Source: Sulfuricystis thermophila
GTDB lineage: Bacteria; Pseudomonadota; Gammaproteobacteria; Burkholderiales; Rhodocyclaceae
NCBI RefSeq assembly: GCF_004323595.1
Contig: NZ_AP019373.1
Span: 1,612,001-1,676,000 of the forward strand
Length of the DNA: 64,000 nucleotides
Direction of reading: 5' to 3'
Part shown: piece by piece, positions 10,207 through 36,531 of the stretch
Layout of the letters: each line of letters opens with the position of its first letter
Numbering within the stretch: the stretch's first letter is position 1
Made by a program: the position numbers and the translations under genes
The notes under the pieces: generated by a model
Database searches by the model: none
Told to the model about the DNA's origin: nothing
What the model saw: the letters and a program-made list of their open reading frames with translations, nothing else

Positions 10207-11775
10207 CTAGCGGCGGCGGGCGGCATCTTCGAGCAACGCGTCGAGCTTGTCCCCCGCAGCGGCGAGGAAATCGCTCAGTGCGGCTTCGCTGCCGGGTTCG
10301 AACGCATAGACGAAGACCGCTGCGGAGGCATCGCCCCGTCCGCTCAATTTCTCCCATGCCAATCGCAACTTGCCGAGCATGTCGTTGATGACGACGTGGC
10401 CGTCGATCCAATACCAATGCCAGACCGTGAGGCGCGGTGGATCGGCAGCCAGCAGCGCGTCCAGACTGCGCAAGGTGCTGCTATGCACGCTGACACGCTT
10501 CGCGCCCAGCGGGGCTTCGCGCTGCGCCCGCCCGACTTGTGCCCAGGCCTTGTTCGCGCTCGTCACCAAGCCATTCGACGAGCTGATCAGCTTGCGTTGG
10601 TAATTCTGGTGTTGATACCAGGCGATGAAGACACCGATGCGCTGTTCGCCCCTGGCGAAGGTCGCGTTCAGTGTCGTCGTCGGATTGGCATAGGCCGGCT
10701 GCCAGTCGGTCAGCGGCGCTTCGAGCCGTTGCCAGCCCCCTGTAGCCAGTGCTTCCGGCGATAGTTGCAGTGCCGGGAGCACCGGACCACTATCCAGCAA
10801 CGCCAGCACGCCATGGGGCGCCAGCGCGATCGACGAGGCCAAGACCATGGCCACCCACACGTTCCGTGGCTGGGGAGCAGCGCGACTTTGCCTTTCGACC
10901 CTTTCGGCCTCGGCAGGCGCCGTAGTTTCGGATTCGCGCCAGCGCAGGCCGATCGCGAACATGATCAGCATCACCGCGCCGAAGAACACCCAGCCGTAGA
11001 TCAGGTGATCGACGCCGACGGCGAGCGTGTTGCCGGAGAGGTGGCCAAGCATGACGATCATGTATGCGCGCAGCCAGTTGGCGACGACTGGCACTGCGAT
11101 CGCCACCCCGACGAAGATCAACCGGCGCTTCAGCGAGCGGTAATTGAGGTAGGCATAGAGCGTACCGACGACGATCGAGGCGATCAGATAACGGATGCCG
11201 CTGCAGGCTTCGACCACCGACCATTTGCCCGAGGGAATGACGAAATGCAGGCCTTCCTGATAGACGGGGATGCCGGAGGCACGCAAACCCATCACGGTGA
11301 ATTTCGCCGTCCAATCCATCATCGCCGGCATCACGAATTCGCCGAACGGTACCGCGAAGAACAGGAATGCGAGGGGAAAGAGGATACGTTTTGCGGCGGG
11401 AAGACCGATCACCAGCGGCACGGCGAGCACCAGCATCGCCACCAGTGCGAACTGGGTCAGCACATTCACTGCGACCAGCTCGCCCAGCAACCAGCCGAAG
11501 GCGATCAGGGCCAATGGCAGTAAGAGCCAGGGCGTGGGGCGCGGCGATTCCTGTGCCAGCAGATGGCGTTTTTCCCAGATCAACCAAAGGCTGATCGGTG
11601 GCACGAGGAAGGCATGATTGAAGGTTCCCGAACGCCACCAGATCTCGACCATCGCGCGTGCCGTGTCGAAATAGAGCGCGAGCAGCACCAGCTCGATGAC
11701 GACGAGCGCAACGCCGGCCTGCTTCCAGCCCGCAGCGGGTGCAAAAGTCGGCGCTGACGGCACGGCACTGTTCAT
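10207..11775 (-). CDS. xrtA: Exosortase A with fused C-terminal EpsI domain
   Basis: This inner-membrane cysteine protease/transpeptidase processes PEP-CTERM proteins. The 522 residues contain about eight hydrophobic segments. The catalytic triad typical of exosortases is visible: C191 in VEACSGIRYL, R236 in ANWLRAYMI and H257 in GVDHLIYGW. Residues from about 320 onward form a soluble EpsI-type domain (ending near VYAFEPGSEAAL), so this is the fused EpsH/EpsI form. The start at 11775 overlaps the stop of the upstream glycosyltransferase as ATGA. A copy of the 25-bp repeat lies within codons 3-11, giving SAVPSAPTF at the cytoplasmic N-terminus. Confidence 0.95.
   Translation of the reverse strand: MNSAVPSAPTFAPAAGWKQAGVALVVIELVLLALYFDTARAMVEIWWRSGTFNHAFLVPPISLWLIWEKRHLLAQESPRPTPWLLLPLALIAFGWLLGELVAVNVLTQFALVAMLVLAVPLVIGLPAAKRILFPLAFLFFAVPFGEFVMPAMMDWTAKFTVMGLRASGIPVYQEGLHFVIPSGKWSVVEACSGIRYLIASIVVGTLYAYLNYRSLKRRLIFVGVAIAVPVVANWLRAYMIVMLGHLSGNTLAVGVDHLIYGWVFFGAVMLIMFAIGLRWRESETTAPAEAERVERQSRAAPQPRNVWVAMVLASSIALAPHGVLALLDSGPVLPALQLSPEALATGGWQRLEAPLTDWQPAYANPTTTLNATFARGEQRIGVFIAWYQHQNYQRKLISSSNGLVTSANKAWAQVGRAQREAPLGAKRVSVHSSTLRSLDALLAADPPRLTVWHWYWIDGHVVINDMLGKLRLAWEKLSGRGDASAAVFVYAFEPGSEAALSDFLAAAGDKLDALLEDAARRR
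11744..11768 (+). repeat. 25-bp interspersed repeat, copy 2 (inside xrtA, antisense)
   Basis: On the plus strand this reads AAAGTCGGCGCTGAC, then GG, then CACGGCAC, with two differences from the consensus. It lies antisense within the first eleven codons of xrtA, where the frame reads SAVPSAPTF. The same peptide pattern (AV-P-APTF) is produced by copies 4 and 7. Confidence 0.75.
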
Positions 11776-12971
11776 GGCACGAGGGAATCGAGATGGCGGT
11801 CGATCACGGCGAGATGGGCGTCCCAACTGTAGCTGGCCAACACCCGGCGGCGGGCAGCCCTGCCAATGTTATCAGCATGGACGGGATCGGCCAGCAGCGA
11901 TTCGATGCGGGCTTGATATTCATCGGCGCTTTCGGCGACGAGCAGCTCTTCGCCGGACACAGCGGCGATCGGTTGTGCGCAGGTCGCCGAGGCGACCACC
12001 GGCCGGGCCATCGCCATCGCTTCGAGCACCTTGTTCTGGATGCCGCGGGCGATGCGCAGCGGCGCGACGACCACGGCGGCATGGGCGAGATACGGGCGCA
12101 CGTCCGGCACCGTGCCCGTTACCACGACACCCTCACCTGCCAATGCCTGCACCGTCGGGTCTGGACTGCGGCCGACGATAAAAAAGCGCAGCGCCGGATG
12201 GCGCCGCCGCAACCCGGGCAGGATTTCGTTGGCGAACCAGACCGCGGCATCGATGTTCGGCCAGTAATCCATCGCGCCGGTGAACACCAGGGGAATTTCC
12301 TCGTCGCGATAAGGCGAGTCGAACCCCTGCTCGGGCGAGAAGAACTCGGCATCGACGCCGTTGCCCATCGCCTCGACCCGTCCGGCGCACTCCGGTGCCG
12401 CGGCGAGGAACAGATCCCCCTCGGCATCGGTGACGAAGAAGGCATGATCGGCCTGGTGTGCCACCGCTCGTTCGAAGGCAAACAGTCGCTCGCCCTCACG
12501 ACGATAAAGCCAGGACAAGGGCCAGCGATGCGTCGTGGCGTACTGCCGCCATTTGGCCGAATCCATATCGACGAAATCGACCAGCGTCGGCAGCCGTTCC
12601 ATGCCGGACAGGTAATCGGCCATCACCGACGAGAACACGATTGCCGCATCGATGTCTGCCGTCTCGCAGGTGTGCCTCACCCAATCACGCAAGCCGGCAT
12701 CCCGGTAGTAAGGCAGCGACAGCGCCTCGCCGCTCAACAGGCCTTTCAGGCTGCGCAGCTTCGCCCGCCGTGGCGTCAGCCGCGCGACGCGCATGTCGGC
12801 ACAATACGCGCGCACCGCGTCGAGCCAGACTTCGTCGGCGGGATCATCGATGAAGGTGCCGAGATAGATCTCATGGCGCTGGGCCAGATGCTTCATCAGA
12901 TGGAAGGAGCGCACCTTGTCGCCCTTGTTCGGGGGATAGGGCAACCGATGCACGAGATAGAGCAGCTTCAC
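11772..12971 (-). CDS. XrtA-system glycosyltransferase (TIGR03087-like)
   Basis: This is a GT-B glycosyltransferase of 399 residues. The N-terminus LLYLVHRLPYPPNKGDKVRS is the hallmark of the exosortase-A-associated sugar transferase group known as TIGR03087. Further on come VDFVDMDSAKW, IPLVFTGAMDYWPN and the donor-site region RIARGIQNKVLEAMAMARPV. It acts at the cytoplasmic membrane during repeat-unit assembly. It overlaps xrtA and is 6 bp downstream of the FemAB-like gene. Donor and acceptor sugars are unknown. Confidence 0.93.
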   Translation of the reverse strand: MKLLYLVHRLPYPPNKGDKVRSFHLMKHLAQRHEIYLGTFIDDPADEVWLDAVRAYCADMRVARLTPRRAKLRSLKGLLSGEALSLPYYRDAGLRDWVRHTCETADIDAAIVFSSVMADYLSGMERLPTLVDFVDMDSAKWRQYATTHRWPLSWLYRREGERLFAFERAVAHQADHAFFVTDAEGDLFLAAAPECAGRVEAMGNGVDAEFFSPEQGFDSPYRDEEIPLVFTGAMDYWPNIDAAVWFANEILPGLRRRHPALRFFIVGRSPDPTVQALAGEGVVVTGTVPDVRPYLAHAAVVVAPLRIARGIQNKVLEAMAMARPVVASATCAQPIAAVSGEELLVAESADEYQARIESLLADPVHADNIGRAARRRVLASYSWDAHLAVIDRHLDSLVP

Positions 12972-27532: not shown

Positions 27533-27572
27533 GATCGTGTCATTCTTCCAATTCCGCGCAGCGAGGCACACC

Positions 27573-30338
27573 ATGACTTCCCTCTCCCATCGTACTCTGG
27601 CCATCGCGACGCTCGTCGCCGCTCTCGTCGGCACTGCCTGCGGCGATTCTCCCGAAGCCATGCTCGCTTCGGCGAAGGAGTATCTGGCCAAGAACGATCA
27701 GGCAGCGGCGACGATCCAGCTGAAGAACGTGCTCGCCAAGAATCCCGATTCGGCGGAAGCCCGGTTCCTGCTTGGCAAAGCCCTGCTCGAAAGCGGCGAC
27801 GTGACGGCCGCCGAAGTCGAATTGCGCAAAGCGCTCGACCTCAAACATCCTGCCGACCAAGTGGTGCCATTGCTCGCCCGTGTGCTGCTCGCCCAAGGCC
27901 AGTTCAAGAAACTCGACGAGCTCGCCAAGACCCCCATCGCTTCTGCCGAGGGATTGGCCGACCTGAAAACGACGCTCGCGCAAAGCCTCGCGATGCAGGG
28001 CAAGCCCGATGCCGCACGCGCGATGCTCGACGAAGCACTGGCGGCGAAGGGCGATTTCGCGCCCGCCCTGCTCGTCAAGGCGCGCATCAAGGTGGCCGAC
28101 AACGATCTGGCCGGTGTGCGCGCGATCATCGATGGCATCCTCGCCAAGACGCCACAGGATGTGAATGCCCTGCTCTTCAAGGCCGACCTGTTGAATGTCG
28201 AAGGCAAGACGGCGGAAGCCATCGCCACCTACGAACAAGCCGTCCAGCTCAAGCCGCAGGCGCTCAATGCCCATGCCGCGCTGATCATGATCCATCTCCG
28301 CGAGCGCCAGCCGGACAAGGCCGCCAGGCAACTCGAGGCGATGCAGAAGGTGGCGGCCAAACACCCCTTGACTTACTACATGCAGGGGTTGCTGGCCTTC
28401 AGCAAGAAGGATCTGCCGACTGCGAAGACTGCCGTCGACAATTTGCTGAAACTCCAGCCCGACAGCCCGCAAGGGCTGCAGCTCGCCGGCCTGGTCGCCT
28501 ATGAGAGCCGTTCCGATCTCCAGGCACAGGATGCCCTGCGCAAGGCGTTGCAAAAGGCGCCGGGGCTGGCGCTCGCCAGGCGCACCCTCGTGCTGTCCTA
28601 TCTGCGCAGTGGCCAGTCGGCCAAGGCCGTGGAAACTCTGCAGCCGGTGCTCCAGGGCAAAGATACTGCACCCATCTGGCTCGAACTGGCGGGCAACGCC
28701 TATCTGCAAAATGGCGATGCCAAGACTGCCGAGGAATATTTCCAGCGCGCAGCCAAGATCAATCCGCAGGACAAGAAGACGCAGACTGCGCTGGCACTCG
28801 CGCGCCTGCGCGGCGGCCATGCAGCCGAAGCCTTGGACGAACTCGAGGAAATCGCCGCGACCGATACCGGCACCAGCGCCGACATGGCGCTGATCGTCGC
28901 CAGCATTCGGGCAAGACAGTTCGACAAGGCCCTCGAAGCGATTGCCCAACTGGAAAAGAAACAGCCAGACAATCCGGTGGTGCACAACCTGCGCGGCGGC
29001 ACCCTGCTGGCGAAAGGCGACCAGGCTGGTGCGCGCAAGAGCTTTGAAAAAGCCTTGACGATCAACCCGGCCTATCTGCCGGCCGCGAGTGCGCTCGCGC
29101 AGATGGATCTACGCGCCAATCAGCCGGAACAGGCTCAGAAACGTTTCGAAGCGGTGCTGGCGAAGGACCCGAAGAACGTCCAGGCGATGCTCGCGCTCGC
29201 CGAACTGCGCGCGCGCACCGGGGCCAAGTCCTCTGAGGTGATCGAACTGATCAACCGCGCGATCGCCGCAGCCCCCACCGAGCCCGCGCCGCGTCTGGCG
29301 TTGATCGGTGTCCATCTGCGCGACCAGAACAAGGACAAGGCCCTCACCGCGGTGCAGGGAGCCCTCGCCGCAATTCCCGACCGGCCGGAACTGCTCGATG
29401 TCGCCGGGCGCATCTACCAGATGAACGGGGATACCCAGCAGGCATTGACCATTTACGGCAAGCTAGCAAACCTGATGCCGACCTCGCCGCAGCCCTATCT
29501 GCGCATGGCCGAAATCCAGCTTCTCGCCAAGAATCGGGAAGGCGCACGCAGCAGCCTGACCAAGGGGCTGTCGATCCTGCCGGATTCGCTGCCGCTGCAT
29601 CGTGCACTGATCCAGCTCGACCTCGATGAGGGCAAACTCGACGCTGCGCTCGCCAAGGCGCGCGAAATCCAGAAAAGCCAGCCGCAGCAGAGCATCGGCT
29701 ACCTCTTCGAAGGCGATGTGCATGCGGCGAACAAAGCCTGGGCACAGGCGGCGAATGCCTATCGCAACGGACTGAAAGCCGCGCCGGCGACGGAACTCGC
29801 GCAACGGCTGCATGCCGTGCTGCTGGCCGACGGCAAGGCCAGCGAGGCGAAGGCCCATGCCGACGCCTGGCTCAAACGACACCCGAAAGACAACGGCTTT
29901 CGCCTTTATCTCGCCGAACAGGCGAACCGGCGCAAGGATTACGCGACGGCCGCGACACACTATCGCACCCTGTTGGCCGCCGAACCGGACAATCCGGCGC
30001 TGCTCAACAATTTCGCCTGGACGCTCGGGCAGATGAAAGACCCGCAGGCCATTGCATTGGCCGAGCGCGCCAACACGCTCGCGCCGAACCAGCCGGCGAT
30101 CATGGATACGCTCGGAATGTTGCTCGTCGACCGCGGCGATGGCAAACGCGGCATCGAGCTCCTCGCCAAGGCGGTCGAGCTGCAACCGCAGGCCGCCGGT
30201 ATCCGGCTCAACTATGCGAAGGCCTTGATCAAGACGGGTGACAAGACGACCGCTCGCCAGCAGCTCGAAGAGCTCGCCAAGCTCGGCGAACGTTTCCCGG
30301 CGCAAGCGGAAGTCGCGGAGCTCCTGAAGAAGCTGTAA
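27573..30338 (+). CDS. prsT: XrtA/PEP-CTERM system TPR lipoprotein PrsT
   Basis: This 921-residue envelope protein consists almost entirely of tetratricopeptide repeats after a signal peptide (IATLVAALVGTAC). The cysteine after GTA may be lipidated, although the box is not canonical. Over twenty TPR-like units can be seen, such as ARFLLGKALLESGDVTAAE and LLNNFAWTLGQMKDPQAI. Its length and lysine-rich repeats match the PrsT family, about 900 residues. I chose the ATG at 27573, which has GAGG seven bases upstream, over an upstream GTG. It follows prsR by 40 bp and probably scaffolds secretion components. Confidence 0.93.
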   Translation: MTSLSHRTLAIATLVAALVGTACGDSPEAMLASAKEYLAKNDQAAATIQLKNVLAKNPDSAEARFLLGKALLESGDVTAAEVELRKALDLKHPADQVVPLLARVLLAQGQFKKLDELAKTPIASAEGLADLKTTLAQSLAMQGKPDAARAMLDEALAAKGDFAPALLVKARIKVADNDLAGVRAIIDGILAKTPQDVNALLFKADLLNVEGKTAEAIATYEQAVQLKPQALNAHAALIMIHLRERQPDKAARQLEAMQKVAAKHPLTYYMQGLLAFSKKDLPTAKTAVDNLLKLQPDSPQGLQLAGLVAYESRSDLQAQDALRKALQKAPGLALARRTLVLSYLRSGQSAKAVETLQPVLQGKDTAPIWLELAGNAYLQNGDAKTAEEYFQRAAKINPQDKKTQTALALARLRGGHAAEALDELEEIAATDTGTSADMALIVASIRARQFDKALEAIAQLEKKQPDNPVVHNLRGGTLLAKGDQAGARKSFEKALTINPAYLPAASALAQMDLRANQPEQAQKRFEAVLAKDPKNVQAMLALAELRARTGAKSSEVIELINRAIAAAPTEPAPRLALIGVHLRDQNKDKALTAVQGALAAIPDRPELLDVAGRIYQMNGDTQQALTIYGKLANLMPTSPQPYLRMAEIQLLAKNREGARSSLTKGLSILPDSLPLHRALIQLDLDEGKLDAALAKAREIQKSQPQQSIGYLFEGDVHAANKAWAQAANAYRNGLKAAPATELAQRLHAVLLADGKASEAKAHADAWLKRHPKDNGFRLYLAEQANRRKDYATAATHYRTLLAAEPDNPALLNNFAWTLGQMKDPQAIALAERANTLAPNQPAIMDTLGMLLVDRGDGKRGIELLAKAVELQPQAAGIRLNYAKALIKTGDKTTARQQLEELAKLGERFPAQAEVAELLKKL

Positions 30339-30342
30339 GGCG

Positions 30343-31245
30343 ATGCGCTGCAATTCCCTTTTCCGCCTTTGGCCTTTCGCGCTTCTCGCGCTGGGTGCCG
30401 TCCTGCCAGCGCCGACTTTCGCGAGGGAGGATCCTGGCCCCGGACATTGGCGTCAGATGCGTGAGGAAGCCCGCGCCTATGAACATGGGGAAGGTGTGAC
30501 CAAGGACCCGGCGAAAGCCTATGCGCTGTATTGCGCGGCGGCGAAAGCCGGCGATGCGGAAGCGCAATACAGTCTGGGCTGGATGATCGCCAATGGCCGC
30601 GGCGTGCCACGCGACGATGCCGTCGCCGCCTACTTCTTCAGCCTCGCCGCCGGACAGGGGCACGAACCCTCGCGGCAAATGCTGCGTTTCGTCGGTGCGC
30701 CGACAGACAAGACTCCGGAATGCCTGCGCGATCCGCCGCCTGCCGCAGACCTGGCCGATGACATCGAATTCAGCAGCGAGGAGCAGCGCCGATTGGCCGA
30801 GCTGGTCAAGCGTCTTGCTCCGGAATACGGTATCGAACCGCGGCTGGCACTCGCCATTGCGCGCACCGAATCGAATCTCAACCCACGCGCCGTCTCGCCG
30901 AAGAACGCTCAGGGTTTGATGCAGCTGATCCCGGAAACCGCCGTGCGCTTCAACGTCAAGAAGCCCTTCGATCCCGAACAGAACGTGCGCGGCGGCCTTG
31001 CTTACCTACGCTGGCTGCTGGCCTATTTCCGCGGCGACGTCGCCCTTGCCGCTGCGGCCTACAATGCCGGCGAAGGCGCGGTCAACCGCTTCCTCGGCAT
31101 TCCGCCTTTTGCCGAAACGCGCGAATATGTGAAGCGCATCCTGGAATTCTTCCGCCGCCACGAACACCCGTACGACGCCTCGGTGACGGAGCCTTCGCCT
31201 GAACTACCGAAGATCCTGCACCGCCTCTCCAGAGTCCGATCATGA
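30343..31245 (+). CDS. Sel1-repeat lytic transglycosylase
   Basis: This is a periplasmic muramidase-like protein of 300 residues. It has a signal peptide (FALLALGAVLPAPTFA), two Sel1 repeats (YEHGEGVTKDPAKAYALYCA and AQYSLGWMIANGRGVPRDDA) and a SLT domain. The catalytic Glu lies in ARTESNLNPRAVS, followed by GLMQLIPETA and AAYNAGEGAV. It opens peptidoglycan, perhaps for assembly of the secretion complex. Repeat copy 4 makes the end of the signal peptide, encoding GAVLPAPTF right before the likely cleavage site. It overlaps the next gene as ATGA. Confidence 0.92.
   Translation: MRCNSLFRLWPFALLALGAVLPAPTFAREDPGPGHWRQMREEARAYEHGEGVTKDPAKAYALYCAAAKAGDAEAQYSLGWMIANGRGVPRDDAVAAYFFSLAAGQGHEPSRQMLRFVGAPTDKTPECLRDPPPAADLADDIEFSSEEQRRLAELVKRLAPEYGIEPRLALAIARTESNLNPRAVSPKNAQGLMQLIPETAVRFNVKKPFDPEQNVRGGLAYLRWLLAYFRGDVALAAAAYNAGEGAVNRFLGIPPFAETREYVKRILEFFRRHEHPYDASVTEPSPELPKILHRLSRVRS
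30395..30419 (-). repeat. 25-bp interspersed repeat, copy 4 (in signal peptide codons, antisense)
   Basis: On the minus strand this reads AAAGTCGGCGCTGGC, then AG, then GACGGCAC, a perfect consensus match. It is antisense within the first 26 codons of the lytic transglycosylase gene, where it encodes AVLPAPTF around the signal-peptidase site. Confidence 0.85.
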
Positions 31246-32015
31246 AGCCGCGGCTTCCCGGGCAGCGGCTCTTTGCGCTGCTCTTCTGCCTGATGCTCGC
31301 GCTGCCGGCGCGAGCCGGGCTGCCCGACACGATCGAACGCATCAAGCCCGCGCTGGTCGTCGTCGGCCTCTACAACAAACTGAAAAGTCCCGCCTTCCAA
31401 ATGCGTGGCACCGGCTTCGCCGTTGGCGACGGCCGGCTAATCGCCACCAACGCGCATGTCGTGCCGGAAACCATGGGAAACGAGCCCGGCCAAGATCAGC
31501 TGGCCATCCTCGCCAGGTTCGGCAGCGAGCGACGCGTGATCGCGGTTCGCCTGGTGACGCGCGATGCCGACCACGACCTGGCACTGCTGCGCTTCGATGG
31601 GCCACCGTTGCCTACCGTGACGCTCGGCGACTCCGATACCGTGCGCGAAGGCCAGGCCGTTGCCTTCAGCGGCTTCCCGATCGGCAGCGTGCTGGGGTTC
31701 TCGCCGGTCACCCACCGCGGCATCGTCTCCTCGATCACGCCGATCAGCGTCCCTGGCAATACCGCCAGCCAGCTCAAGACGCCTTCGATCCGCAGCCTGC
31801 GCTCTGGCCCTTTTCCCATCTTCCAACTCGATGCGACTGCTTATCCTGGCAACAGCGGCGGGCCACTGTTCGATGCCGATACCGGTGAAGTGATCGGCAT
31901 CCTCAACATGGTGTTCATCAAGACGACCAAGGAAGCCGTGTTGGAAAAACCGTCGGGAATCAGCTATGCGATCCCGATAAAGCACCTGAAAGAACTGATC
32001 GGTGCCGAGAAATGA
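31242..32015 (+). CDS. Periplasmic trypsin-like serine protease
   Basis: This S1C/DegP-like protease has 257 residues and no PDZ domain. A signal peptide (LFALLFCLMLALPARA) is followed by the triad: His in IATNAHVVPE, Asp in RDADHDLALLRF and Ser in TAYPGNSGGPLFD. It may process envelope or PEP-CTERM-related proteins. It is translationally coupled to the lytic transglycosylase and ends 5 bp from the convergent nucleotidyltransferase gene, the end of the plus-strand block that starts at 20995. Confidence 0.9.
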   Translation: MKPRLPGQRLFALLFCLMLALPARAGLPDTIERIKPALVVVGLYNKLKSPAFQMRGTGFAVGDGRLIATNAHVVPETMGNEPGQDQLAILARFGSERRVIAVRLVTRDADHDLALLRFDGPPLPTVTLGDSDTVREGQAVAFSGFPIGSVLGFSPVTHRGIVSSITPISVPGNTASQLKTPSIRSLRSGPFPIFQLDATAYPGNSGGPLFDADTGEVIGILNMVFIKTTKEAVLEKPSGISYAIPIKHLKELIGAEK

Positions 32016-32020
32016 ATCCC

Positions 32021-33130
32021 TCAGCCTGCTTGGCCGCCGACGGCTTCCTGGGCGTTTGTAGCGTCATCGACCCGCTTTTCCGGCAACAAAGCCTTGCGGG
32101 ACAGATGATAGACAAGCAGAAAAAATGGCATGCGCAACCAGTGTGAGCGGACATAGAGAGCGAATCGGGCGGCAGGCGTCCCGAAACGGCGACAGGAGGC
32201 ATGTTCCGGTTGCAAGGCACGCATATAGCAAAAATCCATCGCCAGACGAACGGCAGCGGCCGGCTGGCTGATGTTAGCCAGTACTTGTTCGGGCATGGGT
32301 GTACCCAGGAGCCGATGCGTATACCTCAGTGCATAGAACAACGGCCGTTCCAGGCCGAGATCCCTTGCCCTTGGCAGAAGGTCCGCCCAGAAAGCGGCAT
32401 TTTTGCCGAAATGGCGCAGGAGCGCATCGAGATCGAACAAATCCCGCAAACCGTTGTGCAATTCCCCCTCGTGGAAGAGGTGGGCAGCACTATGCAGCAC
32501 CATGTCGATCGGCTGCAGGATGAAAAAATTCTCATGGGCCGACAGCGGCACCGGAGCATCCCACAATGCGGAGGTATTCACCTTGATACGTGCCGTCAAC
32601 GGCAGGATGGCGTGATGCACGTCGATGACCGTACCGCGCTTTTGATGCATCAACGGCGGGATCTCATGCATCCATTGCCGGTAATACCGTTGATAGTAGG
32701 CATCGTGATGGCTGCTGCTCCAACCATGCCGAATCAGTGCCGCCTCGGCGTGATCGATGCGTTCTTTCGGGACGAGGATGTCGACATCCGAAAAGACCCT
32801 GCCCCTGGCCGGCGGAAGTTCAGCCATCACATAAGCTGCGCCCTTCAACAATACGGCAGGAATATCCTCTGCTGCCAGAGCCTCATGGATACAGCGAACC
32901 TCCCAGCGAATCGCACGTGCCTGCTGGTCCGCAACTGCCAGAGCGGAGAACAGATGGGATCGTGGCGCCTGGGGAACCCTCTCCAGTAGCCCAAATGAAG
33001 CAAGTTCGGCGGCGAGCTTGCCGAGGAGATTCGCACGGCGGCCCTGGCGCACGAGCAGATCCCATTGTGCCGCTGTCAGCGCCAGCGAACGCTCCGGTTG
33101 TAACAGGGTTTGCGTGATCAAAGCCGACAT
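32021..33130 (-). CDS. Nucleotidyltransferase family protein (PF14907-like)
   Basis: This 369-residue protein has a nucleotidyltransferase core: VLLKGAAYVMAELPP, then the metal-binding DxD in VFSDVDILVPKE. A long helical C-terminal region follows. The family is common beside exosortase loci and beside lasso-peptide-type tailoring genes. The ATG at 33130 is 4 bp after the stop of the HPr-kinase-like gene. A longer frame to 33223 overlaps that gene and is rejected. With the kinase and PqqD-like genes it forms the HPr-rel-A set. Its substrate is not known; it may nucleotidylate the product of the kinase step. Confidence 0.87.
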   Translation of the reverse strand: MSALITQTLLQPERSLALTAAQWDLLVRQGRRANLLGKLAAELASFGLLERVPQAPRSHLFSALAVADQQARAIRWEVRCIHEALAAEDIPAVLLKGAAYVMAELPPARGRVFSDVDILVPKERIDHAEAALIRHGWSSSHHDAYYQRYYRQWMHEIPPLMHQKRGTVIDVHHAILPLTARIKVNTSALWDAPVPLSAHENFFILQPIDMVLHSAAHLFHEGELHNGLRDLFDLDALLRHFGKNAAFWADLLPRARDLGLERPLFYALRYTHRLLGTPMPEQVLANISQPAAAVRLAMDFCYMRALQPEHASCRRFGTPAARFALYVRSHWLRMPFFLLVYHLSRKALLPEKRVDDATNAQEAVGGQAG

Positions 33131-33134
33131 GTCT

Positions 33135-34052
33135 TCAATCTGATGTGGACGCAGCCAAAGAATCGAATGCCTGCATGGCGTCTTCGAGATCGCCGTAGCT
33201 GAATTCGTAGCAATCGCAGCCATCGATCATCCGGGTAATGATCTCGAATCCCCTGCGCCCGTGGATATCGTAATTGAAGGATTCCTGGGCAACCCTGAGA
33301 CAGGTCTGCCCCTTGCTGAATGGGAGGAAAGTCGCTGGCGTATCGGGCAGATACTTCGGAAATACGACCCAGGCCGGCACGGCCACTTCGTCGATGCGCC
33401 GAACGCTGTCGGCAGGTGGGCGCATCAGCGCCACCATTCCCTTGCGTGTGTCATGTACCGGTGATGTCATCACGCATTCAGGAACGAAGCGCCTGATGAT
33501 CTCGATCGATCGATTCTTGAGGTTGATCGGTCGCGCCAGCGGCACGAGCTGGCCGGTATCGACCGCCAACAAGGCCAATTCATCCGAGAGCAGACGCCAG
33601 CCACGGTTGACCAATGCGGCACAGAGGGTGCTTTTCCCCGAGCCTGGTGGCGCGGGCATGATCACTGCTCTTCCGCCACGTTCGATCACCGCGGCGTGGA
33701 TGATCAGGAATTGATGGGCATGCGAGGCGATGCACCAGTTGAGCCCCCATTCGAGCATCGGATAAGCCTGATCCAGCGGTAAGGGATGGAACGTTGGCAT
33801 GCCGTCGAAATGAAAATCGACCTGAGGCCTGATCCAGCGTCTGAGCCCCCTTGCGCGTCGCAATTCGATATGGAAATCCGCAAACGAACCAGGCTCTGCG
33901 ACCGAGAAATCCGCATACATTTGGAGTAGCACATCGGCTAGGCCAGGGGCGTCGCTGCGTATGGATACGACAAACGGCGAGAGCTGCAACCAAAGCCCTT
34001 CCGCCCTCAAGCTGGCAGTAATTCGTGAAAGGGTCGAGTCGGCCAGCCTCAA
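33135..34052 (-). CDS. HprK-related kinase A
   Basis: This 305-residue protein has the core of HPr kinase/phosphorylase: H119 in IIHAAVIER, Walker A PPGSGKST at about 135-142 and D157 in RLLSDELAL. The N-terminal 110 residues are unrelated to the HPr kinase N-domain. The layout matches HprK-related kinase A (TIGR04352-like). Related kinases in lasso peptide clusters phosphorylate a serine of the precursor peptide. Here the substrate is unknown; the PqqD-like protein overlapping upstream suggests a peptide or protein substrate. Confidence 0.9.
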   Translation of the reverse strand: MRLADSTLSRITASLRAEGLWLQLSPFVVSIRSDAPGLADVLLQMYADFSVAEPGSFADFHIELRRARGLRRWIRPQVDFHFDGMPTFHPLPLDQAYPMLEWGLNWCIASHAHQFLIIHAAVIERGGRAVIMPAPPGSGKSTLCAALVNRGWRLLSDELALLAVDTGQLVPLARPINLKNRSIEIIRRFVPECVMTSPVHDTRKGMVALMRPPADSVRRIDEVAVPAWVVFPKYLPDTPATFLPFSKGQTCLRVAQESFNYDIHGRRGFEIITRMIDGCDCYEFSYGDLEDAMQAFDSLAASTSD

Positions 34053-34333
34053 TCGTCTCTCAGCTCCAGAAGACCAACCGTTTCGAGGCGGGTGAGTGTC
34101 GCGTGAATGTAGTCGCGCGAATGCTCATCGATAGGCAGTTCGAAGCTCGAAGCCAAATGACGGACGATTTCCTCACGCGGCCGCACCGAATCGGAAAGAT
34201 ACACGAGGACTGCCAAGGAAAGGGGGTCGAGCAGATGGGTATCGCCAGAGAGCACATCATAGGCGACGGCCTCGTCTTCCCAAGACTTGACTAGGAAACG
34301 ACCAGTCCGATCCAGCCCGAAACGGAGTTCCAT
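34049..34333 (-). CDS. HPr-rel-A system PqqD-like peptide chaperone
   Basis: This 94-residue protein has the PqqD/RRE winged-helix pattern: VLSGDTHLLDPLSLAVLVYL, then RPREEIVRHLAS and a C-terminal YIHATLTRLETVGLLEL. PqqD-like domains bind leader peptides and present them to modifying enzymes. The stop overlaps the kinase start as ATGA. A strong hairpin between this gene and the candidate substrate gene lies upstream. It corresponds to the TIGR04353-like group. Role as recognition element is from family knowledge; the partner peptide is inferred. Confidence 0.88.
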   Translation of the reverse strand: MELRFGLDRTGRFLVKSWEDEAVAYDVLSGDTHLLDPLSLAVLVYLSDSVRPREEIVRHLASSFELPIDEHSRDYIHATLTRLETVGLLELRDD

Positions 34334-34356
34334 GTCAACGATCGCCAGACGTAAAC

Positions 34357-34386
34357 AAACAAACCGCGCACCAGCGCGGTTTGTTT
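34357..34386. terminator. Perfect 12-bp hairpin between candidate substrate gene and PqqD gene
   Basis: The arms are AAACAAACCGCG and CGCGGTTTGTTT with loop CACCAG. On the minus strand the hairpin is followed by TGTTTGTTTA, a moderate T tract. It would reduce transcription from the 34424-35008 gene into the PqqD/kinase/nucleotidyltransferase genes, making the upstream protein more abundant than the enzymes. Confidence 0.75.
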
Positions 34387-34423
34387 TCCGAGATGGCTCG
34401 GCGAATATGCTTGAAGCTCTTTT

Positions 34424-35008
34424 TCAGCCAAGCAACCAATTGGCCTGGAGATATTGTCTGATTTGCGACCGTCCCCACACCACATTATTGACGGGATCAC
34501 TGTAGCTCCCCGTCGCCATTTGCTGCAGTTGCACCAAGGTCAGGCAGTTATTGCGCGCCACCGGATTGTATTGCAGATTCAGCCAGGCAGTCACGATGTC
34601 CCGTTTGAAGCCTGGCTGCAGGTCCTTGATTTTCGTCGTATCACCGGCAAATGCACTTTCAAGTCCCGGAATCTGCTGTAGCTGGGTATTCTTGGTTACA
34701 CCACCTGGCAACTGACCTTGATGTGCTTGCCAATAATCCTTCCAGCCCGAAAAGGTCTTGACTCCATTGATGTCGAAGCCGGCTGGGTCGTCCCAATGGG
34801 GATCATTCCGTGGCCGATGACTGGCGAAAGTCAAAGACCCACCCGCCGATGGCGATTTGCAATGGCAAGCCAGAACCGAACGGCTCGACAAAGTGAGCAC
34901 CACCGGCGCGACCACCGTGCCAAGCTTCAGCAAACGGCGGCGACCTTCACTCTTGGCGACCGGTCGTTCCTCGTCAGGGGAAAGGGTCGGATTTTCAGAA
35001 GTGTTCAT
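34424..35008 (-). CDS. Tat-like secreted protein, candidate substrate of the HPr-rel-A set
   Basis: I do not recognise a named family. The 194 residues start with a polar region, then a twin-arginine-like signal (GRRRLLKLGTVVAPVVLTL) ending SRSVLAC. C48 and C50 follow directly (LACHCKS). C48 could be a processed or lipidated N-terminus, but the box is atypical. The mature part has no membrane helix, is rich in Q, N, G and W, and ends QANWLLG. Small proteins with such APVVLTLSSRS signals are common in exosortase genomes. It has an AAAGG ribosome site six bases upstream and is the first gene before the hairpin and the PqqD-kinase set. Confidence 0.75.
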   Translation of the reverse strand: MNTSENPTLSPDEERPVAKSEGRRRLLKLGTVVAPVVLTLSSRSVLACHCKSPSAGGSLTFASHRPRNDPHWDDPAGFDINGVKTFSGWKDYWQAHQGQLPGGVTKNTQLQQIPGLESAFAGDTTKIKDLQPGFKRDIVTAWLNLQYNPVARNNCLTLVQLQQMATGSYSDPVNNVVWGRSQIRQYLQANWLLG

Positions 35009-35145: not shown

Positions 35146-36531
35146 TCACTGAGCACCTTTACCTCCCACCACGACCCCCACTGTTTCGAACAGGATCACC
35201 AGATCGAGCAGTAGGGTATGATTTTTTACGTAATATAGATCGTATTGCAATTTCTGCGCCGCATCGTCGACGCTCGATCCATAGTGGTAGCGCACCTGCG
35301 CCCAGCCGGTCACGCCGGGCTTGACGCTATGGCGCACGGCATAGAACGGAATCTCCTTGGTCAGCTGATCGACGAAATAGGCACGTTCCGGACGGGGGCC
35401 GACCATGCTCATGTCACCCTTGAGGACAGAGAACAATTGCGGCAGTTCGTCGATGCGCAACTTGCGGATGATGCGTCCGACTCTCGTCACGCGTGTATCG
35501 TTTTTCGACGCCCAGCGCGGGGTGCCGTCCTTCTCCGCATCCTTCTTCATGCTGCGAAACTTGATTACGTTGAACAGACGGCCGTTCAATCCCACCCGCT
35601 CCTGGCGATAGAGAATTGGGGGACCATCCTCGATCAGGATGGCCAGCGCGGTGATCAGCATCAAGGGTGAGAAGACGATCAGCAGGAGCGTCGCGACGAC
35701 GATGTCGAAGATGCGTTTGACCACCGTCCGCCCAGTGTTTTGACGAAAACCGTCGCCGAAGATCAACCAGCCGGCACGCAGCGCATCGAGACGGATCTGG
35801 CCCAGCATGCGCTCGAAATGGCTCGACATGTCGAGCACCAGGACCCCCGAAAGACGGCAGTCGAGCAATTCGCGCAGCGGCATCCGGCCGCCGCGTCGCT
35901 CGCCGATGGCGACGACGATCTCGTCGACTTTCAGTTCATTGACGACATCGACGAGGCTTTTCTCTCGCGGAATGAGCATCTCCTGCGGCACCATCACCGG
36001 TTCGCTCGGATGTCCCGGATAAAACCCGACGATACGCACCGTCTGGTCCTCCTTGCTCAACGAGGCCGCAACCGATGCCGCATGTTCGCCAGCGCCGAAA
36101 ATCAGCAGACGCAGCGTCACCAATGCGCGCTGACGCCGGTGGCTGGCCATCACCCGATAGCTCAGCATGCCGAACAGGGCCGCCATACCGGACAGTTCGA
36201 GCAGATTACGGTCGGCATTGACCGACGGCAGGATCAGGAAGATCACATAGGCCACCGGGATCGACAGGTGCAGCGACAGCACCGCCCGCGCGCGCGAATC
36301 CTCGATCGTCCGGTCGTGGATGCGCTGATAGAAGCCCAGCCAGGCATTGATCGCCAGCATCACCAGCGACAGGATGGCCGCGTAGATGGCGACCAGTCCG
36401 TAATCAACCGGCAGGCCGTTTTTGACCCACATCACGGCGACGAGAATGCCGACGAAGACGAAGCCGAAGTCGAAAATCACCTCGAGCAGAGTATCGGGGC
36501 GAAAAGTATGCCCCATCGTCTTCAGCGGCAT
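35146..36531 (-). CDS. XrtA-type undecaprenyl-phosphate sugar phosphotransferase
   Basis: This polyisoprenyl-phosphate hexose-1-phosphate transferase has 461 residues. Four N-terminal transmembrane helices are followed by a CoA-binding-like Rossmann region (LLIFGAGEHAASVAAS). The catalytic C-terminal domain has a membrane helix (IVVATLLLIVFSPLM), KFRSMKKDAEKDG, RKLRIDELPQLF, SMVGPRPERAYFV and VKPGVTGWAQV. It matches the exosortase-associated group TIGR03013. It starts exopolysaccharide repeat-unit assembly on undecaprenyl phosphate. It lies apart from the other sugar genes, after the ABC permeases. GAGGAG six bases upstream supports the start. Confidence 0.95.
   Translation of the reverse strand: MPLKTMGHTFRPDTLLEVIFDFGFVFVGILVAVMWVKNGLPVDYGLVAIYAAILSLVMLAINAWLGFYQRIHDRTIEDSRARAVLSLHLSIPVAYVIFLILPSVNADRNLLELSGMAALFGMLSYRVMASHRRQRALVTLRLLIFGAGEHAASVAASLSKEDQTVRIVGFYPGHPSEPVMVPQEMLIPREKSLVDVVNELKVDEIVVAIGERRGGRMPLRELLDCRLSGVLVLDMSSHFERMLGQIRLDALRAGWLIFGDGFRQNTGRTVVKRIFDIVVATLLLIVFSPLMLITALAILIEDGPPILYRQERVGLNGRLFNVIKFRSMKKDAEKDGTPRWASKNDTRVTRVGRIIRKLRIDELPQLFSVLKGDMSMVGPRPERAYFVDQLTKEIPFYAVRHSVKPGVTGWAQVRYHYGSSVDDAAQKLQYDLYYVKNHTLLLDLVILFETVGVVVGGKGAQ

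Follow-up and report, generated by a model that had tools for sequence, protein, structure and literature searches.

A four-gene operon of Sulfuricystis thermophila that probably directs leader-guided serine modification of a Tat-type protein

What does the HPr-rel-A gene set act on? The question is raised by a 64,000-nucleotide stretch of the Sulfuricystis thermophila genome (contig NZ_AP019373.1, positions 1,612,001 to 1,676,000), here called the window, in which genes for a 194-amino-acid (aa) protein, a PqqD-like protein, an HprK-like kinase, and a nucleotidyltransferase (NTase) follow each other head to tail on the minus strand. We consider it probable that they form a free-standing, leader-guided serine-modification operon and that the upstream protein, predicted to be exported by twin-arginine translocation (Tat), is its dedicated substrate. 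The PqqD-like protein resembles an RRE, the recognition element of ribosomally synthesized and posttranslationally modified peptides (RiPPs). The genes, and the parts of the 194-aa protein that matter most, are as follows.

34424-35008, minus strand: 194-aa predicted exported protein, proposed dedicated substrate, of the N-type (serine motif directly behind the leader)
34049-34333, minus strand: PqqD_rel_X (TIGR04353, 58.5 bits, cutoff 35), RRE-like predicted leader binder
33135-34052, minus strand: HprK-related kinase A (TIGR04352, 404.4 bits, cutoff 200)
32021-33130 (full open reading frame [ORF] to 33223), minus strand: NTP_transf_5 nucleotidyltransferase (PF14907, 204 bits), with a Pol-beta-type NTase fold
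34838-34951, minus strand: Tat-like leader to serine motif, residues 20-57 (RR at 23-24, APVVLTLSSRSVLA), alignment A6
34859-34861, minus strand: codon of Cys50
34847-34849, minus strand: codon of Ser54, candidate acceptor
34835-34837, minus strand: codon of Ser58, candidate acceptor

The trio behind the 194-aa protein is the full HPr-rel-A set of NCBIfam: the kinase and the PqqD family peptide chaperone pass both curated cutoffs, and directly behind them lies the PF14907 NTase, which we take to be part of the HPr-rel-A definition. The kinase starts with a TTG that overlaps the PqqD stop codon, and for the NTase, the ATG at 33130, immediately after the stop codon of the kinase, is a more likely start than 33223. 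Kinase residues His119, Lys140 (Walker A), and Asp157 show no exchange among the 41 sequences of alignment A3 (40 of 120 kinases plus the window's), and the DxD motif (D112/D114, numbered from 33121) and third aspartate (D167) of the NTase are unchanged in the 40 rows of A5 (39 of 79 NTases plus the window's). The initial annotation had described three adjacent, coupled genes with intact kinase and DxD residues, preceded on the same strand by a secreted-looking protein, and the family matches, the alignments, the coordinates, and the Tat motif all agree with that description. A TIGR04352 kinase above the cutoff occurs once in the genome, besides a single weak second match; the PqqD-like protein reaches 16 bits with PF05402, below the cutoff of 23.4.

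The association of the secreted-looking protein with the trio greatly exceeds chance, whichever of the two serves as the starting point. Starting from the protein, matches were found in 23 of 150 genomes of the same family (its own included) at 26 loci, every one of which has the kinase within the ∼3 kb examined. Starting from the kinase, an iterated profile of the protein matched upstream in 80 of 81 loci (80 neighborhoods plus the window); at the 81st, L165, a leader protein was recognized by eye. Forty further kinase loci came from a phylum-wide search (30) and from the same family (10). A separate collection of 80 named loci, the best 80 of 164 found by kinase alignment alone, includes Rhodoferax, Nitrotoga, Gallionella, Thiobacillus, Massilia, Accumulibacter, Methylomonas, and Alteromonas. 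In this set the protein lies directly upstream in 76 of 80 loci, or in 74 of 78 when two copies of training loci are set aside (three named loci have DNA identical to that of earlier ones, L260 to L104, L264 to L139, and L262 to L216, two of the three being in the training set). Among the exceptions, L255 and L257 carry the precursor behind the NTase, L273 is cut by a contig end, and the scan of the named loci found no precursor at L290, from a Phycisphaeraceae metagenome-assembled genome. L257, L291, and L268 each have two copies of the precursor, some of which follow the NTase or lie farther upstream.

Across genomes, the kinase is present in 138 of 140 with a match to the protein profile versus 169 of 395 overall. 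The two profile-positive genomes that lack it have a weak match with stops (G523) and a match at a contig end (G747); in 5 of the 140, the match falls inside a giant ORF and not in a precursor, in G665 and possibly others beside a true precursor. Among 41 of the 138 genomes with both genes, for which distances were taken, one odd pair (G566) lies 7.5 kb apart. Homologs of the 194-aa protein thus accompany the trio in other genomes, and the co-occurrence check that the initial annotation had proposed came out in its favor.

The common element of these proteins is their leader. That of the window protein has the features of a Tat substrate, with a twin-arginine motif (SEG-RRRLLKLG), a hydrophobic stretch, and an AxA-like end, and a gene for TatC lies at another site in the genome. 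The family pattern is RRxLxK...APVxxTLxSRPALA; R23 is kept in 64 of 65 rows and R24 in all 65 rows of A1, an alignment of the 64 loci judged N-type by eye plus the window, with 15 C-type loci and L165 left out. A profile of ∼38 residues, spanning the leader and the first residues behind it, matches directly upstream in 184 of 201 kinase loci (1.92 Mb), many of which had also served to train it (without the uncertain precursors L209, L224, L263, L275, and L302), so that the named-locus set is the cleaner test. Its five other matches are extra or displaced copies no more than 2.9 kb from the kinase. Among the 17 loci without a leader match directly upstream are L255 and L257, with the precursor behind the NTase, and L273 and L275, cut by contig ends; at L095, L187, L188, L190, L193, L199, L240, and L263 a precursor was seen by other scans or by eye (L188 and L190 by eye alone), and the remaining five (L196, L201, L211, L212, and L290) show no precursor.

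Searched against whole genomes at an E value of ≤1e-4, the leader profile picks out a single place in 26 of 30 kinase-positive genomes, and that place is the kinase locus; some of the genomes searched had contributed leaders, and since no more than 127 candidates in each genome were scored in the first pass, further weak copies could escape. Alignment A6 omits 4 of 46 selected leaders (L205, L209, L298, and L302). Of the 30 kinase-negative genomes, one has a match, in G316, ∼2.7 kb from a kinase relative below the family cutoff, and none of the other Tat signals among the candidates scored in these genomes matched at this threshold. Confinement of the profile to kinase loci makes the leader a specific tag, consistent with a PqqD-type reader.

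Directly behind the leader, N-type proteins such as that of the window carry C-x(2,3)-S-x3-S, often extended to S-x3-S-x3-S. C-type proteins mostly have no such motif and carry [ST]..CxxS[FLIV], for example SCWNS or TCFAS, near the C terminus. In A1, Cys50 and Ser54 are each conserved in 64 of 65 rows and Ser58 in 65 of 65; in A4 (45 of 62 longer named precursors plus the window), the counts are 46/46 for Cys50 and Ser54 and 45/46 for Ser58, figures that flatter conservation because 17 divergent precursors were dropped. The window sequence is counted in both alignments; another alignment, A2, omits L120, whose start was miscalled. S-x3-S occurs in all 131 N-type precursors (mean of 68 in shuffled sequences), the triad with Ser or Asn in third place in 106 (shuffled, 13), and the Cys-containing form in 104 (shuffled, 12.5). 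The strict tail C..S[FLIVA] is found in 38 of 53 C-type precursors (shuffled mean, 1.9) versus 0 of 131 N-type precursors. Because a loose tail pattern served to assign the C-type, the finding of that pattern in 53 of 53 is partly circular; the N-type is the remainder, S-x3-S being unused in the assignment. At L109 (3287-3508) a minimal C-type precursor of 74 aa consists of the leader and about a dozen residues ending in CNASLI, and would be a natural first test substrate.

The two types follow the kinases. On a tree of the kinases from the 184 loci with a leader match, the N- and C-type labels require 3 changes, whereas shuffled labels require 46 on average and never as few as 3 in 500 shuffles, with the C-type kinases forming a clade of 45 and a clade of 7, plus the doubtful L159; 48 of the 53 C-type labels came from the pattern and 5 (L118, L121, L155, L158, and L285) were placed by hand. 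The position of the serine motif thus cosegregates with kinase type, as would be expected if it contained the kinase target, and we regard Ser54 and/or Ser58 as the candidate acceptors in the window protein. The initial annotation had placed the modification on the secreted protein, or on its C-terminal QANWLLG or its CHC motif. The QANWLLG end has no conserved Ser or Thr and was rejected; in the CHC motif, the first Cys is not conserved and was likewise rejected, and the second alone, Cys50, the neighbor of the serine motif, is conserved.

How might the four proteins work together? The 194-aa protein would be synthesized with its specialized Tat-type leader. By analogy with the protein families concerned, the PqqD-like RRE protein would bind the leader and recruit the kinase, the HprK-type kinase would phosphorylate a conserved serine (Ser54 and/or Ser58 in the window protein, the near-C-terminal serine in C-type precursors), and the Pol-beta-fold NTase would cap the phosphate with a nucleotide or sugar. 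To judge from the leader and TatC, the Tat system would then export the finished protein across the inner membrane, with removal of the leader. The outcome would be a decorated serine near the mature N terminus, in cells that mostly also have the XrtA exopolysaccharide system.

The closest parallel is the tailoring of lasso peptides such as paeninodin and pseudomycoidin (by PadeK/ThcoK/SyanK and by PsmK with PsmN), which likewise pairs an HPr-kinase-like enzyme with an NTase and uses a serine as the acceptor; the leader-binding B1 protein of lasso clusters parallels the PqqD-like protein. PadeK acts on its precursor ahead of folding, phosphorylating the C-terminal serine; for pseudomycoidin, phosphorylation by PsmK is followed by the attachment, through PsmN, of one or two hexoses to the phosphate (PMC8498205, PMC9266682), PsmN being read either as a glycosyltransferase or as nucleotidylating ahead of a host enzyme (PMC9266682). 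In contrast, the proposed substrates here carry a Tat leader and measure about 200 aa, with the acceptor predicted after the leader in the N-type and close to the C terminus in the C-type, and the window protein ends in WLLG with no conserved Ser, unlike lasso-type substrates with their C-terminal Ser. The suggestion that the window holds no lasso cluster stands as far as the B2-type leader protease is concerned (PF13471, Transglut_core3; no match in the whole genome); the cyclase was not searched for. RRE-dependent RiPP systems share with the window a discrete PqqD-like protein, a conserved leader on an adjacent precursor, and adjacent modifying enzymes; the differences are that here the leader doubles as an export signal of the Tat type and that the majority of substrates have the size of proteins. 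MenT and ANT(2'') have the same Pol-beta-type fold as the window NTase, with 12 to 15% identity over the aligned part, but differ in context and substrates.

No substrate family for HPr-rel-A was found among the Pfam and NCBIfam models. Searching the literature for HPr-rel-A names and accessions yielded nothing experimental, subscription papers being outside the scope of the search and prior notice therein possible; a term search of two RRE papers found kinases, HprK, and exosortases unmentioned. What is new relative to the named set is the proposed substrate, its leader, and its serine motifs.

The window also holds an XrtA exopolysaccharide locus, with genes for XrtA, FemAB, chain-length and tyrosine-kinase proteins, PrsK, PrsR, PrsT, and EpsB_2 around the set. 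Its members and the nearest neighbor of the operon include the following.

31242-32015, plus strand: HtrA-like trypsin-type protease, convergent neighbor of the operon
35146-36531, minus strand: XrtA/PEP-CTERM system sugar-phosphate transferase (TIGR03013), upstream neighbor
27537-30338, plus strand: XrtA system TPR protein PrsT (TIGR02917), family match
10207-11826, minus strand: exosortase A (XrtA, TIGR03109) with an EpsI domain, about 20 kb from the operon

Within the family, an exosortase was found in 40 of 40 kinase-positive versus 7 of 20 kinase-negative genomes, so the initial annotation was correct there in placing the set in exosortase company. Outside the family, XrtA exceeds the cutoff in 30 of 41 kinase-positive versus 4 of 39 kinase-negative genomes, and when 18 kinase-positive genomes were chosen, for the most part from lineages that lack XrtA, an exosortase of any kind turned up in 7 and none was found in 11. 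These counts show a strong link to XrtA, yet the system can live alone; the company is not universal, and full dependence on an exosortase is not upheld, since kinase-positive genomes without a detected exosortase exist. The chromosomal neighborhood, too, is usually different: the XrtA sugar transferase occurs in 12 of 200 kinase loci and PrsT in 24. The XrtA/PEP-CTERM locus and the operon thus mostly share genomes, and in the window a neighborhood, but are separable. A homolog of the HtrA-like neighbor is present in 61 of 200 kinase loci, and this protein is a candidate maturation protease.

Kinase relatives that fall below the HprK_rel_A cutoff extend the picture. Of 20 loci examined around them, 8 have leader matches at an E value of about 0.01 or better (L306, L315, L317, L318, L320, L321, L322, and L324), L314 has a weaker one (E value of 0.048), and the others have nothing of note. 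The leader ORFs mostly encode 56 to 87 aa (one, 149 aa), in which a leader of the form SRRxFLKKxAYVAPAILTLxAxPxxA precedes G-S and a short polar core, and PqqD-like proteins, often with NTP_transf_5, are encoded nearby. They look like RiPP-like precursors of a sister branch. The short leader ORFs, in the coordinates of each locus, are as follows.

L315, 4656-4853, 5140-5373, and 5625-5885, minus strand: three short leader ORFs
L318, 4576-4746 and 6212-6388, plus strand: two short leader ORFs
L317, 2349-2564, minus strand: short leader ORF
L324, 4976-5200, plus strand: short leader ORF
L321, 2946-3206, plus strand: short leader ORF
L320, 4045-4212, minus strand: short leader ORF

At L307 to L311 and L313, kinase relatives of ∼100 bits occur with PqqD-like proteins and NTP_transf_5 and without a leader match, as another branch.

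Do these observations allow other explanations? The trio might modify another target, for instance an intermediate of the XrtA pathway (an exopolysaccharide or a lipid), with the upstream protein as another member of the operon, such as a carrier or receptor. The strong co-occurrence with XrtA and the adjacent sugar transferase in the window would fit, but a PqqD-like protein implies a peptide ligand, the same leader heads dissimilar proteins (N-type, C-type, and short peptides) as a recognition tag would, the serine motifs are conserved, and the exosortase was not found in 11 of the 18 picked genomes; we therefore consider this unlikely. Much the same weight, if slightly less, goes to a RiPP-like precursor from which a small peptide, for example around the serine motif, is released after modification through cleavage by the HtrA-like protease. 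Minimal forms exist (74 aa at L109; leader peptides of 56 to 87 aa beside distant kinases, up to three per locus), and the HtrA-like homolog at 61 of 200 loci could supply the cut, but the ∼130 residues of conserved sequence behind the N-type serine motif (W89, W93, A141, and N144) suggest a lasting protein, and a leader protease of the lasso kind was not found in the genome.

System-specific Tat chaperones exist for other Tat substrates, and here a gene for a small PqqD-like protein accompanies a tag that resembles a Tat leader; the PqqD-like protein and kinase might thus serve Tat quality control only, with a transient covalent change or none. Simple proofreading, however, gives no role to the conserved active site of the kinase or to the separate conserved NTase, and the serine motifs that covary with kinase type lie outside the leader; we therefore consider this very improbable. 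A chance neighborhood, in which an ordinary Tat protein happens to lie next to the trio in this genome, would draw on nothing beyond generic Tat features; it is contradicted by co-occurrence from both sides and by the specificity of the leader and is so improbable that we rule it out.

Several points weigh against serine modification of the upstream protein, the explanation that we favor. The chemistry assigned to the precursor is read from the enzyme families, and the characterized kinases of the reports cited above act on a C-terminal serine, whereas the serine motif of the window protein is near the mature N terminus. Cosegregation of motif and kinase type could be plain coinheritance of a linked operon, and Ser54 and Ser58 might be conserved for folding, which is conceivable because conserved Cys50 lies beside them. 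The leader profile finds nothing at an E value of ≤1e-4 in 4 of 30 kinase-positive genomes, the kinase occurs without a recognizable precursor at L196, L201, L211, L212, and L290, and PqqD escaped detection at 12 of 121 loci and, in the named set, at 8 of 80.

With a substrate, a leader, and one or two serines now named, the function of the trio becomes directly testable. If leader-guided modification is correct, the phospho-capping of serine known from a few lasso peptides would be a general device acting on exported proteins in many environmental Proteobacteria, and it would come with a sister branch of short peptides. We suggest tentatively, as a possibility that we hold short of probable, that HPr-rel-A and its subthreshold relatives constitute a widespread class of Tat-leader-guided serine phospho-capping systems, in which one RRE reads a shared tag, kinase and Pol-beta NTase build a phosphodiester-linked sugar or nucleotide on a conserved serine, and Tat exports a surface or matrix protein (N- and C-types) or a small RiPP-like peptide. 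Such a class would link RiPP-style tailoring in the cytoplasm to Tat export and, for many of the hosts, to the exopolysaccharide matrix of XrtA.

Two of the loci without a precursor, L196 and L212, have an HprK_rel_A kinase above the cutoff with neither PqqD nor precursor detected nearby, the NTase being absent at L196 and distant at L212; these sets may have decayed or been rewired.

The 194-aa protein of the window has no match among the models of Pfam and NCBIfam, and a scan of 65 family members gave only stray matches, confined to one or two members, the best being to a Tat signal (E value of 6e-4). Its predicted structure is weak (pLDDT of 68, falling below 50 at residues 57 to 83) and a comparison of the model with the PDB gave nothing at an E value of ≤0.001, which leaves the fold open; sequence searches of the PDB gave nothing useful for the NTase, the kinase, or the substrate profile. 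No copies of the protein were found in plasmid and phage sequences, and no PADLOC defense family matched. The domain behind the serine motif (profile positions about 79 to 190) also matches inside giant ORFs of 1,597 to 3,467 aa that have no leader (G627:C13, G668:C2, G665:C1, G050:C65, and G702:C38), and on its own it may be a surface-protein module.

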